The notes: generated by a model from the sequence alone, not told the origin. Counted from the stretch's first letter, positions 9,264 through 15,578 are shown. The stretch is DNA of 64,000 nt from an uncultured Fodinibius sp. (GCA_913057775.1 CAJXOG010000002.1:310001-374000); one strand, 5' to 3'. Made by a program: numbers and translations.

Positions 9264-10217
9264 TTAATTATTTTGCTTTTTTTCTTTCTCGCTCATTACC
9301 CAATCAATAAATAAAAACTCGAGTCCGGCGGCTTCGTATCCTTCCCAGTTTTTGATCATCTGCTGGAATTCTTCTTCGGAGGTATTATCAGGATCGCCCC
9401 CATAATTAAGTATAATCCACCGTCGGTGCCCTTTTTCCTTACCTTTCTTTTTGTTGCTCGGGAAAACAGCGTCCGGGCGTTCACGAAACAGCATCAGCTG
9501 CTGTGCAGAAGTGGGGCCAATACCTCGAACGTTAGATATGGTGTTATAAAACACTTCAGGTTGACAGGTTTCAAGATGACGCAGGTCACGTTCACCCGAA
9601 AGTAAATCTTCAGCAAAGCCAATAATAAATTCCCCTTTTCTTTTGGTGGGGCCGGGGTCAAGTTGTCGGATACTCATAGGCGTAGCTTTAATAAGTTGAT
9701 GCGGTCGCGGCCAGGCCGGAATGCTTTCTCCTTCTGCATTGATAAGCGATCCATAGTTTTCGCGTACATTATAGACCATCTTTTTGGCAGTAGGTTTGTG
9801 CGATAGCCGCATCTCAATAATGCGATTGATTGTATCCTCAAAAAGGTTGGCCCGGGCCATACGCTTAAATCCATAGTATTCGGTAAGTAAGGGGCCCAGC
9901 ACAGGATCATCAGCAGCTTGATCATATAAAGGACGAAGATCGATGTTGGTACCAAAAATGCGTACTAAACTTTTATTGGCTTCTTCAATTTCATCAGTGC
10001 TTAACGACTCATTACTTTCAAAGTGAAATTCGGGATTGTCCGGATCCCCATTGAAAAAAGAGGTAACAAGAATATCACGATCCTCCAATGGGATAGGTCG
10101 GGTAAATCCCTCTTCGAAAACTTTTTCAGGATCATGTTCATGGTCGAAATACTGATCGATATCTAAGCATAAAAACCAATCGTGCGGTGGTGTGGATTTA
10201 AGTGTCCAATTGCTCAT
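9264..10217 (-). CDS. HhH-GPD-type DNA glycosylase-like protein, possibly inactive
   Basis: Resembles the AlkA/3-methyladenine glycosylase branch of the helix-hairpin-helix base-excision family. A NLFEDTINRIIEMRLS helix (residues 124-139) aligns with the family's NLFE.LV..I..QQ.S helix. A WPRPHQLIKA block (169-178) matches the usual FPTPE.LA, and the hairpin GIGPTSAQQ is at 232-240. After the hairpin the family normally has D.FP..D with the catalytic aspartate; here the stretch is VFPSNKKKGK (251-260), so the aspartate seems replaced and a lysine-rich insert follows. Hairpin lysine of the OGG1/Nth type is also absent. It lies 45 bases after the DNA ligase gene. It may bind damaged DNA without cleaving, or use another residue. 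Fold call fairly sure, activity unsure. Confidence 0.65.
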   Translation of the reverse strand: MSNWTLKSTPPHDWFLCLDIDQYFDHEHDPEKVFEEGFTRPIPLEDRDILVTSFFNGDPDNPEFHFESNESLSTDEIEEANKSLVRIFGTNIDLRPLYDQAADDPVLGPLLTEYYGFKRMARANLFEDTINRIIEMRLSHKPTAKKMVYNVRENYGSLINAEGESIPAWPRPHQLIKATPMSIRQLDPGPTKRKGEFIIGFAEDLLSGERDLRHLETCQPEVFYNTISNVRGIGPTSAQQLMLFRERPDAVFPSNKKKGKEKGHRRWIILNYGGDPDNTSEEEFQQMIKNWEGYEAAGLEFLFIDWVMSEKEKKQNN

Positions 10218-10262
10218 AGTAAAATATTGGGAATTAAGAATGTAAAATTGATAAAAATTACT

Positions 10263-12008
10263 TCAGCCTTTATCATCGCGTGTTGTCTCAAGGTCTAGGC
10301 TTTCAATATAAAAAGATGGATTTTCTTCCTGTTTAAGACGCTCTCGACTTATTTTTTGTTGATACATGTGCTCCACATCCTTGAGTGTATCGGCATCATC
10401 GGGATTTAAATCCCAGCGAATGGCTTTAAACCGAGGCAGCCGCAGTGAATAGTTTGCCTTGGTACGTTTGTTTTCCTGGATGTCATCAAATTCGAGCTCA
10501 ATCACAATTTCGGGAATTAATCCTAAGGTAGGTCCGTATTTTTCGACGGTCAAATCTTTAATACGCTTGTTAAGTCGTTTCATTTCTTCATCTGTATAAC
10601 CGCCGTATGCCTTGCCAATAGGAATGAACTCTTCTTCGTAGCGCTCATCTTCCGCAACCCGGATACCAAGCGTGAAATCAGAATAGTAGCCCCCGCGTTT
10701 TCCGGACCCGGCATGGGCATACATCATAACCGTATCGAGCGTACCGCCCGGCTTTTTGACCTTGAGCCAGGATTTTCTGCGCTGACCGTATTCATAAGTG
10801 CTGTCCACTTTTTTGAGCATTAGCCCCTCATTGCCGTGAGCCAGAGCACGATCAAATAACTCATCAAGATGGTCACGGTCCGTGACTTCAAATTGATTAG
10901 TGATCGGGAGGTCATGGTTCTGCGATAATTTAGTAAGTAAATTGCGGCGCTTCCGGAGCTCTTTTTCGAAGATGGGACGGTTATCATGGTAAAGAAGATC
11001 ATAGGAGATGAATAAGACCGGGTATTTTTCAATGATCTCCTTACCTGGCTTTTTACGTCCCATCCTTTTTTGAAGTAGCTGGAATGGAAGGATCTCATCA
11101 TTTTTAAACACGCATATTTCGCCATCCAAGACTACATCGGACAAATTTCTTTTTATGAAAAACTGTACGATTTCGGGGAACGAATGGGTGATGTCATTGA
11201 GATCGCGAGAATAAAGCTCGACCTGTTGTCCACTGATGTGCGCCTGTGCCCGCATGCCATTAAACTTTTCTTCGGCTATGTATCCATCCAAATTTTCTAC
11301 AGCGCGACTCTCTATTGGGGAGGCGAGCATAAATGAAAGAGGATGAAAGAGTTTGAAGGTTGCTTCATCCAGATTATCATTTTTACAGAGTATGGCTGTT
11401 TTTCCAATACTGCCGGTAATCATGTGGGCATAACGGACTTCCTCAACGTTTTTACCAAAGGCTTCAGCTAGGGCAGAAACAACACTTTTGACTTCAAAAC
11501 CGATACGCAGAGATCCCCGCGTCATAATTCGGATAAAAAACTTGATCTCGACCGGTGTCATCTGTTTCCAGGCATTCCGAAGGATATGTTGTTTATCTGC
11601 CCGTGAGGAAACATTGTATATATCCTCGTAGATAGATTTGATTTCTCGAAGACTGAGTTGAGCCGGTTCGCGTTTTTTGCGTGCAACTTCAATATTATTC
11701 ATCAGCTTTTCTATAGCTTCGGAAGCGCTTCCCAGAGCTGTTTTACACGGTTTAAATACTTTTTCATAATCAATATCACAGAATTCGGCCGCACAGGTCG
11801 AGTAGGTGCGGCTTCCGATCGTTGCTCTTTTCCCGGAAACAGATGAGAAAGCGCCTTCACCCAAGAATTGAGCACCAAGTTTTAGGTTTTTATCATCCTC
11901 GAAAGACTGAAAGTATTGAGCGCAACAGGAGATCTTTGCGTTAGTGCTGCGCGTTTCGTTGATCTGCTGCGCTATTTCGGCCAGTTGTTGGAAGGAGTTC
12001 TCTGCCAT
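10263..12008 (-). CDS. ATP-dependent DNA ligase
   Basis: Seals nicks using ATP, as opposed to the NAD-dependent housekeeping LigA, which is not in this window. The 581 residues contain an N-terminal DNA-binding domain of the DNA_ligase_A_N type (about 1-215). The nucleotidyltransferase core follows: motif I EEKFNGMR (residues 246-253; Lys248 is the expected AMP-linked lysine), motif III FISYDLLY (333-340), motif IV EGLMLKK (394-400) and motif V WLKVKK (414-419). A C-terminal OB domain completes it. Motif I reads KxNG where nearly all ligases have KxDG. Starts two bases after the exonuclease stop, so the two are coupled. This matches the known ligase-associated exonuclease gene pair. Confidence 0.92.
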   Translation of the reverse strand: MAENSFQQLAEIAQQINETRSTNAKISCCAQYFQSFEDDKNLKLGAQFLGEGAFSSVSGKRATIGSRTYSTCAAEFCDIDYEKVFKPCKTALGSASEAIEKLMNNIEVARKKREPAQLSLREIKSIYEDIYNVSSRADKQHILRNAWKQMTPVEIKFFIRIMTRGSLRIGFEVKSVVSALAEAFGKNVEEVRYAHMITGSIGKTAILCKNDNLDEATFKLFHPLSFMLASPIESRAVENLDGYIAEEKFNGMRAQAHISGQQVELYSRDLNDITHSFPEIVQFFIKRNLSDVVLDGEICVFKNDEILPFQLLQKRMGRKKPGKEIIEKYPVLFISYDLLYHDNRPIFEKELRKRRNLLTKLSQNHDLPITNQFEVTDRDHLDELFDRALAHGNEGLMLKKVDSTYEYGQRRKSWLKVKKPGGTLDTVMMYAHAGSGKRGGYYSDFTLGIRVAEDERYEEEFIPIGKAYGGYTDEEMKRLNKRIKDLTVEKYGPTLGLIPEIVIELEFDDIQENKRTKANYSLRLPRFKAIRWDLNPDDADTLKDVEHMYQQKISRERLKQEENPSFYIESLDLETTRDDKG

Positions 12009-12010
12009 AG

Positions 12011-12994
12011 TTAATCGTCTTCTTCAATTTCCATGTCCAAAAATCGTGAGTCGATATTTCTTTCATCCAAATAATGCTGGACAACATCGGCATTGGGAGT
12101 ATGGGTGATGTGTACTTTTTGGGGGTCGAACTCTTCACATAAGCGAATGAGTTCAAAAAAATCGAGGTGGTCGGAAAGGGGAATAAGTTTATGTACAGTC
12201 AACTGACTGCGAGCCGCCTCACGGGTTGCCCAACCAGAGCAGTAAGCAATGCGTTTTTTTTGGACGTTAGATGCAAAGCCATTATTAAGCGCAGAGTTTG
12301 TTGTGATTAAGATGTTACCTTCACAAGTATCCCGATCATAAGATTCGTAGTTACCCAGATCGATACCGGCTTCTTCATACACATCGCACATCTTATATCC
12401 TGCGCCATGGATTTGCACTTGCTGTCCCAGCGGTGCCAGCAGGTGCATAACTTCTTGTGCCTTACCTAAATTGTAGGCTAAAAATATTGGAGTATATCCA
12501 TACTTCAGGGATTTTGAGGCAAAAGATCGAATTTCCTGCCCGAGGTTTTCGTGGGAATCCCATTTATAGATCGGCAGCCCAAAAGTTGCTTCGGTAATAA
12601 AGTGGTCGACTTGATCGGGTATGGAAAATCCCTCTGAAGCTGGAGAGGGCGGTGTGCGATAGTCGCCGGTATAGAGCAAAGAACCTTCATCAGATTCTAC
12701 ATACACCATCGCCGAGCCGAGGATATGTCCCGCCTGATAAAGGGTGATTCGAGCCTTTTCAGTCTCGAATGAGTCGCCAAAATCCATAATCGTTGCATCG
12801 CCCTTGTAACCGCGGCGCTGCATCAGCTTTAGCGTGTTGGGTGTACAGTAAACGCTGCTTTTGCGATTACGCGGCATGTGGTCGGCATGGGCGTGCGAGA
12901 TAAAGGTATACTGGGTATCAGTGCCGCTGTAGTCAAAACCGATGTTAAGATCCGGGAGCAGAATACCGTGATATCCTGCCTTGGTGATTTTCAT
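12011..12994 (-). CDS. ligase-associated MBL-fold DNA exonuclease (SNM1/CPSF-like)
   Basis: Metallo-beta-lactamase-fold nuclease of the group found beside bacterial ATP-dependent DNA ligases. The metal motif HAHADH is at residues 34-39; further ligands are in AGHILGSA (about residue 92), YTGDYR (about 112) and the late LSDHLDF block (about 274), the last being characteristic of the beta-CASP relatives. The 327 residues agree with this family. It overlaps the upstream membrane gene by four bases (ATGA type) and is two bases from the ligase. By analogy with SNM1 enzymes it may trim damaged or crosslinked ends before ligation; this is inference. Confidence 0.88.
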   Translation of the reverse strand: MKITKAGYHGILLPDLNIGFDYSGTDTQYTFISHAHADHMPRNRKSSVYCTPNTLKLMQRRGYKGDATIMDFGDSFETEKARITLYQAGHILGSAMVYVESDEGSLLYTGDYRTPPSPASEGFSIPDQVDHFITEATFGLPIYKWDSHENLGQEIRSFASKSLKYGYTPIFLAYNLGKAQEVMHLLAPLGQQVQIHGAGYKMCDVYEEAGIDLGNYESYDRDTCEGNILITTNSALNNGFASNVQKKRIAYCSGWATREAARSQLTVHKLIPLSDHLDFFELIRLCEEFDPQKVHITHTPNADVVQHYLDERNIDSRFLDMEIEEDD

Positions 12995-13434
12995 GACATT
13001 GGGTGTCGGATGATTACTAAGTATGCCAGCAGGAATATAGCTGATCCCACTGCCACCATAATGGCACCGCTCTTTTTAATGATGTTGGGCAGCTGTTGGT
13101 TGGCTTTAATGAGCGTTCGACTTTGCTCCCACCGCACCAGTTGAAGTCCTGCTATGTACACAACGAATAAACCCCAAATCGTAAAGAGAAGTTCAATCCA
13201 TGAAAAAGGCGTGAATGAAAGTACGAGCCCGGGAAGAGTGAAAAAAAAGAGATATTTTAAAATCCTGATTAACAATGCCGGTGGCTTCTCATGATCTGTT
13301 TTATCAATTAAGTAGTTAGCAATTTTATCCTTTTTGAGGATGATATACCCCCCCGTTCCAACCAAAGAAATAGCCAGTGCCGAGTAGTAAAGGGCAAACC
13401 ATTTTGTAGAAAAGCTTTCCAAATCCATAAGCAA
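12991..13434 (-). CDS. four-helix membrane protein, unknown, in the repair operon
   Basis: Not recognised. The 147 residues hold four hydrophobic segments (about 12-33, 55-78, 80-104 and 121-144) with charged loops between, and no signal peptide or catalytic motif stands out. Its stop overlaps the start of the exonuclease by four bases and its start lies two bases after the TerC-family gene, so it is embedded in the operon. It may work with the TerC protein or simply be carried along. Confidence 0.6.
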   Translation of the reverse strand: MLMDLESFSTKWFALYYSALAISLVGTGGYIILKKDKIANYLIDKTDHEKPPALLIRILKYLFFFTLPGLVLSFTPFSWIELLFTIWGLFVVYIAGLQLVRWEQSRTLIKANQQLPNIIKKSGAIMVAVGSAIFLLAYLVIIRHPMS

Positions 13435-13436
13435 AA

Positions 13437-14384
13437 TTATTCGTCTGGAAGGTTCTCGGCTTCGACTGGATCTTCCTCTTTAGGATATAAGATGGAAGCA
13501 ATAATAGATAGTGCAAGTGCGCCGCCAATAAACGCTAATGCATATGGGGTTGGTATGTGGTAAAAGTCTGAAAGTAGCATTTTAACTCCAACAAAAACAA
13601 GAATGAGCGAGAGTCCATAGTGCAGGTAGTGGAAAAGACGCATGATTCCAGAGACAGCAAAATAGAGTGCTCGAAGTCCCAATATCGCAAAGGCATTGGA
13701 ACTATAGATGATAAACTCATCGCGTGTAATGGCTAAGATGGCGGGAATGGAGTCGAGGGCAAAAACGAGATCTGTTGTTTCAATAACCACTAAAACGATG
13801 AACAGGGGGGTGGCAATAAGACGACCCATTTTTCGAATAAAAAATTTAGAGCCGTGATAGTTCTTGGTAGTGGGGAAAAAGCGCCGAACTAATTTTAAGA
13901 TCGGATTCCGTTCGGGGTGGACTTCTTTATCTTTTTCCATGGCCAGTTTAATACCGGTAAAAACGAGGAATCCGCCGAAGACATAGATGATCCAGTGGAA
14001 ACGTTCTATAAGTGCTACACCGGTAAAGATAAAGATCAGACGCATGACAAGAGCTCCGAAGATCCCCCAGAAAAGCACCTTGTGCTGGAATTCGTCCGGA
14101 ACTTTGAAATAGGTAAACACCAGCAGAAAGACGAATATATTATCAACGCTGAGTGATTTCTCAATCAGGTAGCCCGTATAGTAATCAAGGGCCGTTTGGG
14201 ATCCCATATAGTAATACACCCCAATGCCAAAGACTAGGGCCAGGACTATCCAAGCCCCCGTCCAGTAGAGGGCTTCTTTGATGCTGACGGCCTCATCCTC
14301 TTTGTGAAGCACAACGAGGTCGACAATGAGCATCGCTAGGATAAACACATTGAATACCGACCAAAGTAAGAAGGAGTGATCCAA
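13437..14384 (-). CDS. TerC/Alx-family integral membrane protein (putative Mn2+ exporter)
   Basis: TerC-family protein with about nine helices in 315 residues. The family signatures EKSLSVDNIFVFLLVF (about residues 74-89) and ETTDLVFALDSIPAIL (about 202-217) carry the conserved intramembrane aspartates proposed to bind metal. Characterised relatives (Alx, MntX/TerC homologues) export manganese; tellurite resistance is a historical label. The only start in the right place is TTG (14382-14384); an in-frame stop lies upstream and the next ATG (Met18) would cut off the first helix. The 5' leader holds a nine-base hairpin. Placed directly after oxyR, consistent with managing Mn during oxidative stress. 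Confidence 0.85.
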   Translation of the reverse strand: MDHSFLLWSVFNVFILAMLIVDLVVLHKEDEAVSIKEALYWTGAWIVLALVFGIGVYYYMGSQTALDYYTGYLIEKSLSVDNIFVFLLVFTYFKVPDEFQHKVLFWGIFGALVMRLIFIFTGVALIERFHWIIYVFGGFLVFTGIKLAMEKDKEVHPERNPILKLVRRFFPTTKNYHGSKFFIRKMGRLIATPLFIVLVVIETTDLVFALDSIPAILAITRDEFIIYSSNAFAILGLRALYFAVSGIMRLFHYLHYGLSLILVFVGVKMLLSDFYHIPTPYALAFIGGALALSIIASILYPKEEDPVEAENLPDE

Positions 14385-14393
14385 ACCTGAATA

Positions 14394-14426
14394 ACTTTTG
14401 AGAGTTTAAAAATAAGCCTCAAAAGT
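14394..14426 (-). promoter_or_regulatory. perfect 9-bp inverted repeat before the TerC gene
   Basis: ACTTTTGAG (14394-14402) and CTCAAAAGT (14418-14426) are perfect inverted arms with a 15-base loop. The structure sits ten bases before the TTG start of the TerC gene and about 40 bases after the oxyR stop. On the minus strand it is followed by TATTCAGG rather than a T run, so it is not a standard terminator. It may act as an operator or an RNA hairpin that tunes translation or processing between oxyR and the TerC gene. The known yybP-ykoY manganese riboswitch fold is not evident. Confidence 0.45.
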
Positions 14427-14467
14427 AGCTAATATTTAACAAAATTAATAGCTGAGTAGCGCACAAA

Positions 14468-15406
14468 CTATTCAACCAAAAATCCGTCTTCCTCTTTCTT
14501 GAGCACATCGGGGATGGATGCCATCACCTCTTCTTTGAACGCCTCAATGATATTCTTCTTCAGGTATTCGCGTCCATATACAATGCGTACTTTTCGACGT
14601 GGAACCGGATCGTCAAACTCTCGTAAATGAGCTTTAGCGCATTGTTCATTGATCTGATTTTTTGCAAGGTAAGGCAAAAGTGTCATTCCAAAATTTTGTT
14701 CAACAAGCTGTTTCAATGTTTCCAGATTGCCGCTTTCAAACTCAATTTTAGGGTTATCAAGCTTATTTTTTCTGAATTTCTTGCATAGCTTAACGGTTTG
14801 ATCGCGAAAGCAATGTCCCTCGTTAAGTAGCCACAGATTGGTGACTTCCAAATCATCCACCGAAAGACGATCTTTCTTTGCAAGGGGATGATCCTCCGAT
14901 ACATATCCTAAAAAGGGTTCGTAATAGAGATCTTCCTCGAAAATATTTCCGCGATCGGCCGGTGTGGCTATAATGCCGATATCAAGATGATCTTGGTTAA
15001 GCAGATCGAGCAGTTCATCGGTTACCACCTCTTCGAATATGAGTCGAACATCAGGATGTTTTTTTCGAAAGTTGCGTAAAAAGAGAGGGAGCAGATAGGG
15101 GGCAACAGTGGGGATAATTCCGATCCGAAAAGTGCCCCGAAGCTCATCCTCATTTAGAGCGGCCAGATCTTCAATATGTTTAGACTGTTTAATAATTTTT
15201 TTCGCTTCTGCAATAATTTTTTCGCCAATCTCGGTGGGTATAACGGGGGATTTAGATCGATCAAAAATGGTAATTCCGAGTTCTTCTTCCAGCTTGTGAA
15301 TTTGCATGCTGAGAGTCGGCTGGGTGACGTATGATTTTTCTGCAGCAGTGGCAAAATGGCGGTACCGGTCGACGGCAATAATATATTTGAGTTGCGTGAG
15401 AGTCAT
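14468..15406 (-). CDS. oxyR: peroxide-sensing LysR-type regulator OxyR
   Basis: Transcription factor that turns on antioxidant genes when hydrogen peroxide forms an intramolecular disulfide. The N-terminal winged helix (residues 1-60, MTLTQLKYIIAVDRYRHF then TQPTLSMQIHKLEEELG) is followed by a substrate-binding fold. The two redox cysteines fall at Cys199 and Cys208 in GHCFRDQTVKLC, the same positions and spacing as in E. coli OxyR. That makes this a peroxide sensor rather than a generic LysR protein. The 312 residues are normal. It heads a minus-strand gene run (TerC, membrane protein, exonuclease, ligase, glycosylase) and is divergent from acyP across 172 bases, where autoregulation would be expected. 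Confidence 0.92.
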   Translation of the reverse strand: MTLTQLKYIIAVDRYRHFATAAEKSYVTQPTLSMQIHKLEEELGITIFDRSKSPVIPTEIGEKIIAEAKKIIKQSKHIEDLAALNEDELRGTFRIGIIPTVAPYLLPLFLRNFRKKHPDVRLIFEEVVTDELLDLLNQDHLDIGIIATPADRGNIFEEDLYYEPFLGYVSEDHPLAKKDRLSVDDLEVTNLWLLNEGHCFRDQTVKLCKKFRKNKLDNPKIEFESGNLETLKQLVEQNFGMTLLPYLAKNQINEQCAKAHLREFDDPVPRRKVRIVYGREYLKKNIIEAFKEEVMASIPDVLKKEEDGFLVE

Positions 15407-15578
15407 AATAAATCTATTTCAGAGCAATAAATTGTAACAAATTGTTTGACGGAATTATACAAACTTTAGAACTTTAATTCGTGAAAGTTCGAGATTTCCT
15501 TTCAGATTAGTACATTAGCCGTGAATCACTAAACAACTGAGAGTTAACGATTTAATAAAAAGCATAGAAATAACAATT
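15407..15578. promoter_or_regulatory. divergent oxyR / acyP promoter region
   Basis: This 172-base AT-rich interval must carry promoters in both directions. Two small palindromes lie close to the oxyR start: CAAT-AA-ATTG (15425-15434) and AACAA-A-TTGTT (15436-15446). LysR proteins usually bind imperfect dyads in such positions, so these are plausible autoregulatory sites. The classical E. coli OxyR ATAG-tetrad arrangement is not visible. Confidence 0.35.

Follow-up and report, generated by a model that had tools for sequence, protein, structure and literature searches.

Exonuclease and ligase genes behind oxyR in the Balneolaceae: a probable half of a split Lhr-PdeM-Exo-Lig repair cluster

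Introduction

Why would a DNA exonuclease and a DNA ligase be encoded behind a peroxide sensor? The question is raised by a run of six minus-strand genes in C2:310001-374000, the 64,000-nucleotide stretch of DNA analyzed here (the window, within which feature positions are counted). The stretch comes from a salt-loving bacterium of the Balneolaceae with a genome of the Fodinibius type, as those relatives of the locus that carry a name belong to Fodinibius and Aliifodinibius. The run starts with oxyR and continues with the genes for a TerC/Alx-family protein (terC), a small membrane protein (mem), an exonuclease (exo), a ligase (lig) and a protein with the fold of DNA glycosylases (gly). A previous reading of the window from its DNA alone (the sequence-only reading) proposed a peroxide-controlled repair module standing apart from the usual partners of the exonuclease and ligase. 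An open reading frame check and family searches recovered all six genes at the positions and with the identities proposed. We scored TerC, EXO, LIG and OxyR against the curated cutoffs of NCBIfam and assigned domains with Pfam. Gene content, synteny, motifs, folds and a conserved promoter-like site point to a different explanation, which we consider the probable one: the locus represents one half of a repair cluster known from bacteria, Lhr-MPE(PdeM)-Exo-Lig, which has been split and rearranged in the Balneolales.

Repair partners of the exonuclease and ligase

The exo gene (12011..12994, minus strand) codes for a ligase-associated exonuclease of the SNM1/Apollo type with a metallo-beta-lactamase (MBL) fold. 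The protein has TIGR04122 as its best NCBIfam family, matches the Apollo 5' exonuclease (E 1.3e-8) and carries the motifs HxHxDH, AGHILGS, TGDYR and SDHLD. The adjacent lig gene (10263..12008, minus strand) codes for an ATP-dependent DNA ligase of the LigB type, built from a DNA-binding, an adenylation and an oligonucleotide-binding (OB) domain (Pfam A_N, A_M and A_C). The pairing of these two proteins is a known association, as the sequence-only reading correctly recognized. They are encoded together with Lhr-Core and MPE (PdeM) in a bacterial gene cluster (Ejaz and Shuman, 2018, as cited in PMC8301817 and PMC10140301; NCBIfam TIGR04120-04123), and the biological role of the pathway is given as unknown in PMC10140301.

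Both partners are encoded in the same genome. The Lhr-Core helicase (TIGR04121, 1156 bits versus a cutoff of 850) matches at C2:307437-309866, within a gene spanning C2:307428-309893, and PdeM/MPE (TIGR04123, 220.8 bits versus a cutoff of 150) at C2:306690-307313. The two genes adjoin each other just beyond the left edge of the window, about 9.4 kb from exo-lig and on the same strand. The DEXH helicase and PdeM had been reported as absent because the edge at C2:310001 cuts them off, and the idea of a partner-less, stand-alone module falls with their recovery. Like the known cluster, this genome encodes all four protein types, with exo adjacent to lig, lhr adjacent to pdeM and all on one strand. 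The locus differs from it in that four-gene contiguity is replaced by two separate pairs, with exo-lig placed behind oxyR-terC-mem.

Comparison with relatives supports descent from the contiguous form. In four of the five loci examined in other Rhodothermia, EXO, LIG and LHR follow one another without interruption, with PDEM as well in three of these four, and three Balneolaceae loci (L119, L120 and L170) hold LHR-PDEM-x-x-OXYR-EXO-LIG-GLY inside about 10 kb. Because lhr and pdeM lie nearby, the genes are contiguous in other Rhodothermia and the set fits within about 10 kb in some Balneolaceae, we read the locus as a split form of the known cluster. A literature search returned no description of an oxyR-terC-exo-lig locus, and none of the six proteins matched an anti-phage defence family in PADLOC at E<=0.01.

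Conservation of gene order

The sequence-only reading had suggested looking for the gene order beyond close relatives, where we indeed found it. The arrangement is no mere coincidence. Of 66 Balneolaceae genomes with both genes, 55 have OXYR upstream of EXO with the two on one strand; in the other 11 the genes are on different contigs, and none of the 55 same-contig cases has any other orientation. The two genes are within 1.8 kb of each other in 38 genomes from 11 genera. The order OXYR-TERC-MEM-EXO-LIG is retained throughout the genus and in neighbouring genera, and MEM-EXO-LIG extends to other families of the order, several of which repeat the overlap or close spacing of MEM and EXO. Two loci (L045 and L068) have OXYR-MEM-EXO-LIG without TERC in the run. 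In L068, which belongs to another family of the order, the neighbours in oxyR-mem-exo-lig overlap by 4 bases or sit within 46 bases of each other.

Such a neighbourhood could also persist without any functional coupling, with oxyR, terC and mem as housekeeping neighbours and exo-lig present through slow rearrangement at this site in the Balneolaceae. The absence of terC from the run in L045 and L068 agrees with this explanation, as does the flanking block from ABH, LIGT and ACYP to SSS and GroEL, which is likewise retained in close relatives. Furthermore, exo-lig is gone from two genomes that retain the neighbours, G062 and G007. In G007, from the same genus, OXYR-TERC-MEM is followed by 903 bases without a recognizable EXO or LIG and then by GLY. 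Yet oxyR and exo keep one strand and one order in every same-contig case while the genes between them change, and the tight mem-exo spacing recurs across families. We therefore regard an uncoupled neighbourhood as rather unlikely.

Exo and lig are not inseparable either. In L158, L161 and L169, lig lies 2-3 kb from exo on the opposite strand while oxyR-mem-exo are still together. Another genome carries a second oxyR-exo-lig block (G024:C5:306876-311835) that is broken by stop codons and frame breaks, and has an intact copy on C13.

OxyR and peroxide control

The oxyR gene (14468..15406, minus strand) encodes a genuine LysR-type peroxide sensor, as previously proposed. The protein has the Pfam LysR domains, finds its best PDB match in OxyR 4x6g (E 1.6e-56) and keeps the redox cysteine pair (GHC-N8-C, GHCFRDQTVKLC). 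PRK11151 scored best of all NCBIfam models, with 217.3 bits, which is under its cutoff of 329. Because it is the only OxyR ortholog in its genome (E<=1e-70), this protein in all likelihood serves the cell as its general peroxide regulator, and its position alone is no proof that it controls exo-lig.

The sequence-only reading had nonetheless envisaged an OxyR-controlled operon, induced by peroxide, that couples manganese (Mn) handling to DNA-end repair. The frequent oxyR-exo linkage, the short gaps in this genome and the compact arrangement in L068 all fit such an operon. The OxyR boxes of the genus do not. All 12 congeners carry ATAG-N7-CTAT or a near match upstream of katG, preceded at a distance of 22 bases by another half-site. 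Sites of this type fit the established OxyR consensus. A symmetrised matrix built from these 12 sites, and thus inflating their scores, gave 16-37 bits at katG (37.5 in this genome). With the same matrix, no katG-type box was found in 19 relatives at the start of any of the five genes from oxyR through lig (best 7 bits or less), which leaves room for a weak or divergent site, and the best score anywhere in the window was 9.8 bits. The locus is comparable to an OxyR regulon in having the regulator with its cysteine pair and, within the genus, a katG preceded by an OxyR-type box, and differs in that the cluster genes are without such a box.

Three other OxyR searches were uninformative or abandoned. 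A 14-bit match over the oxyR start codon, obtained with the first katG matrix, was dropped, as it disappeared once the matrix was symmetrised and one mis-called site corrected. Ferritin and Dps loci had no shared OxyR box, and a genome-wide scan for a short OxyR half-site pattern gave fewer matches than its reversed control.

The sequences around oxyR suggest a different transcriptional layout. Inside the gene run, about 35 bases upstream of terC, is a promoter-like TAnnTTTG (TACTTTTG; 14420..14427, minus strand) that is kept in 14 of 14 aligned Fodinibius-clade loci. We take TAnnTTTG to be the Bacteroidota-type -7 box. Upstream of oxyR itself, a promoter-like stretch (TAAAGTTTGTATAATT; 15453..15468, minus strand) is conserved in most of the 14 loci and is not a katG-type OxyR box. 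Further upstream is an inverted repeat read directly from the sequence, GAACTTT-N8-AAAGTTC (15469..15490, minus strand), which is only partly kept in relatives. It does not resemble the katG box and is a possible LysR-type operator, perhaps autoregulatory. Scans of the region for sigma70-type promoters and terminators were at background.

Gene order speaks against an operon as well. Opposite-strand genes stand between oxyR and exo in six loci from several genera (L041, L043, L044, L046, L048 and L049), and co-transcription of the two genes is therefore not conserved. G007 has lost exo-lig and kept the others, and GLY is likewise kept without exo-lig. Thus, with no katG-type box in the cluster and a promoter-like element of terC's own, a peroxide-controlled repair module was not borne out, and we judge it quite improbable.

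Loss of ligation chemistry in ligases of relatives

The window's ligase reads KFNG at motif I (11256-11267, minus strand) where relatives have KFDG, a single-base difference that keeps the catalytic lysine. The same KFNG occurs in F. sediminis (L052). In a survey of 95 ligases, 82 had intact motifs and 10 were without the catalytic lysine, among them that of G126, which is truncated at a contig end. Full-length ligases with another residue in place of the lysine occur in G006 (L042), Fodinibius roseus G011 (L050/L087), G054 (L070), G103 (L150/L253) and G124 (L255). In G036, G046, G049 and G117 the whole adenylation domain is gone, and an open frame leads from the DNA-binding domain directly to the OB domain. 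Three of these adenylation-less genes lie right after exo as one open frame each (L067:8978-10072, L069:9064-10152 and L071:8951-9817; the fourth case is G117). In L067, Pfam recognizes A_N and A_C without A_M; in L069 and L071 it recognizes only A_N.

Ligases without the lysine (dead ligases) were found in 0 of 51 genomes with Lhr and in 10 of 44 genomes lacking it (Fisher p 0.00025, a value that includes related genomes uncorrected and some incomplete genomes). This is a further difference from the known cluster, as some relatives hold exo-lig without lhr-pdeM and part of them have a dead ligase. The Exo tree needs at least 5 changes of the ligase-loss label, and the sequences indicate loss of the lysine in at least five lineages. 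Beside the dead ligases the Exo motifs are intact and the Exo branches long. In the Fodinibius group, nonsynonymous divergence (dN) of the dead ligases is about 0.4 and synonymous divergence (dS) is near saturation; constraint on these genes appears relaxed, not gone. We also considered plain pseudogenes, which are not favoured because the frames are open and dN is far below the saturated dS.

The loss of ligase chemistry with retention of the gene suggests a non-catalytic role for the protein. It is possible, and we propose it tentatively, that the Balneolales ligase paired with the exonuclease has a conserved, ligation-free job, serving Exo as a DNA clamp or loader. The loss of Lhr-PdeM may then have led to repeated shedding of the adenylation chemistry, either through a point change that removed the lysine or through clean excision of the domain, leaving a DNA-binding and OB protein coupled to an intact exo. 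A precedent for a DNA ligase acting without ligation is the catalytically inactive Lig4 of an engineered mouse mutant, which has a structural role in nonhomologous end joining (PMC11754673). The Balneolales cases differ in being natural, recurrent, bacterial and beside an MBL nuclease.

Neighbouring genes

The terC gene (13437..14384, minus strand; TTG start) codes for a TerC/Alx-family metal membrane protein (TIGR03718, 418.7 bits, over the cutoff of 246.4). By this score it belongs to the same subfamily as the TerC/Alx Mn proteins (PMC10550928, PMC13274385). It differs from them in that an Rfam search of the region returned no match and hence no yybP-ykoY Mn riboswitch.

The mem gene (12991..13428, minus strand) encodes a small four-helix membrane protein with counterparts upstream of exo across the Balneolales (24-81% identity). 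No Pfam family fits the set of MEM sequences. Its start is most likely the conserved ATG at 13428, which relatives share, not the TTG at 13434. The terC-MEM gap is for this reason 8 bases and not the 2 first reported, a change that leaves the gaps close to those of the sequence-only reading.

The last gene, gly (9264..10217, minus strand), codes for an AlkA/OGG1-fold protein without the catalytic Asp, as judged from a structural model, structure matches and conservation. The family search returned a weak AlkA match. The predicted structure (predicted local distance difference test score of 94.7) aligns 275 residues with AlkA (Z 25.6, root-mean-square deviation 2.8) and also resembles OGG1 (Z about 22), so that GLY shares with these glycosylases a predicted full-length AlkA fold and a helix-hairpin-helix motif. 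It differs from them in the FPxD motif that precedes the helix, where the catalytic Asp is not conserved (N, S or K in variable aligned columns), and in an insertion ahead of the following helix that carries an invariant Glu, E261; R265 is kept and G263 nearly always. GLY also has N-terminal residues not typical of the glycosylases, H12, D13, D25, E27 and H28, in invariant PHD and YFDxEH motifs. Its position before the helix suggests that E261 may stand in for the catalytic Asp. GLY may bind damaged bases or use this glutamate instead of Asp. The protein is present in 102 of 128 Balneolales genomes, including some without EXO, and its linkage to exo-lig is loose. For this reason we rejected GLY as part of the repair module and treat it as a probably separate AlkA-fold gene.

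Discussion

In the reading of the locus as half of a split repair cluster, the Exo-Lig pair would have parted from Lhr-PdeM and then been placed behind the sole oxyR, the TerC/Alx protein and the small membrane protein. The oxyR gene would form its own transcription unit, and a second promoter, between oxyR and terC, would drive terC-mem-exo-lig. Exo and Lig, made together, may act with Lhr and PdeM in the repair of nicks, gaps or ends, with PdeM cutting single strands, Lhr unwinding, the SNM1-like Exo trimming 5' ends and Lig clamping and sealing. OxyR would be a conserved neighbour and general peroxide regulator rather than a local switch.

Several results weigh against this proposal. EXO and LIG, unlike members of the known cluster, fall under the curated family cutoffs (EXO, 220.5 bits versus 325 for TIGR04122; LIG, 339.7 bits versus 400 for TIGR04120, its second-best family, and 359.5 versus 543 for PRK09247). 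Across the window, TAnnTTTG shows only weak enrichment ahead of genes, and its promoter role rests on conservation. The scan found no terminator between oxyR and terC. Moreover, the gaps of 8, -4 and 2 bases from terC through MEM and EXO to LIG, together with the 55/66 linkage, would also suit an OxyR-linked operon.

The Lhr-MPE-Exo-Lig repair set is known, and its place beside oxyR is unusual and conserved. What is new is the recurrent loss of ligase chemistry, an unexpected hint that the ligase can serve without ligating. The negative result on OxyR boxes removes a tempting but unsupported story of a peroxide switch. Furthermore, the Balneolales provide natural experiments in which the helicase half was lost, exo-lig was lost, or the ligase lost its lysine or adenylation domain beside a motif-intact nuclease. 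With these losses, both the dependence of the partners on one another and a clamp function of the ligase become open to direct testing.

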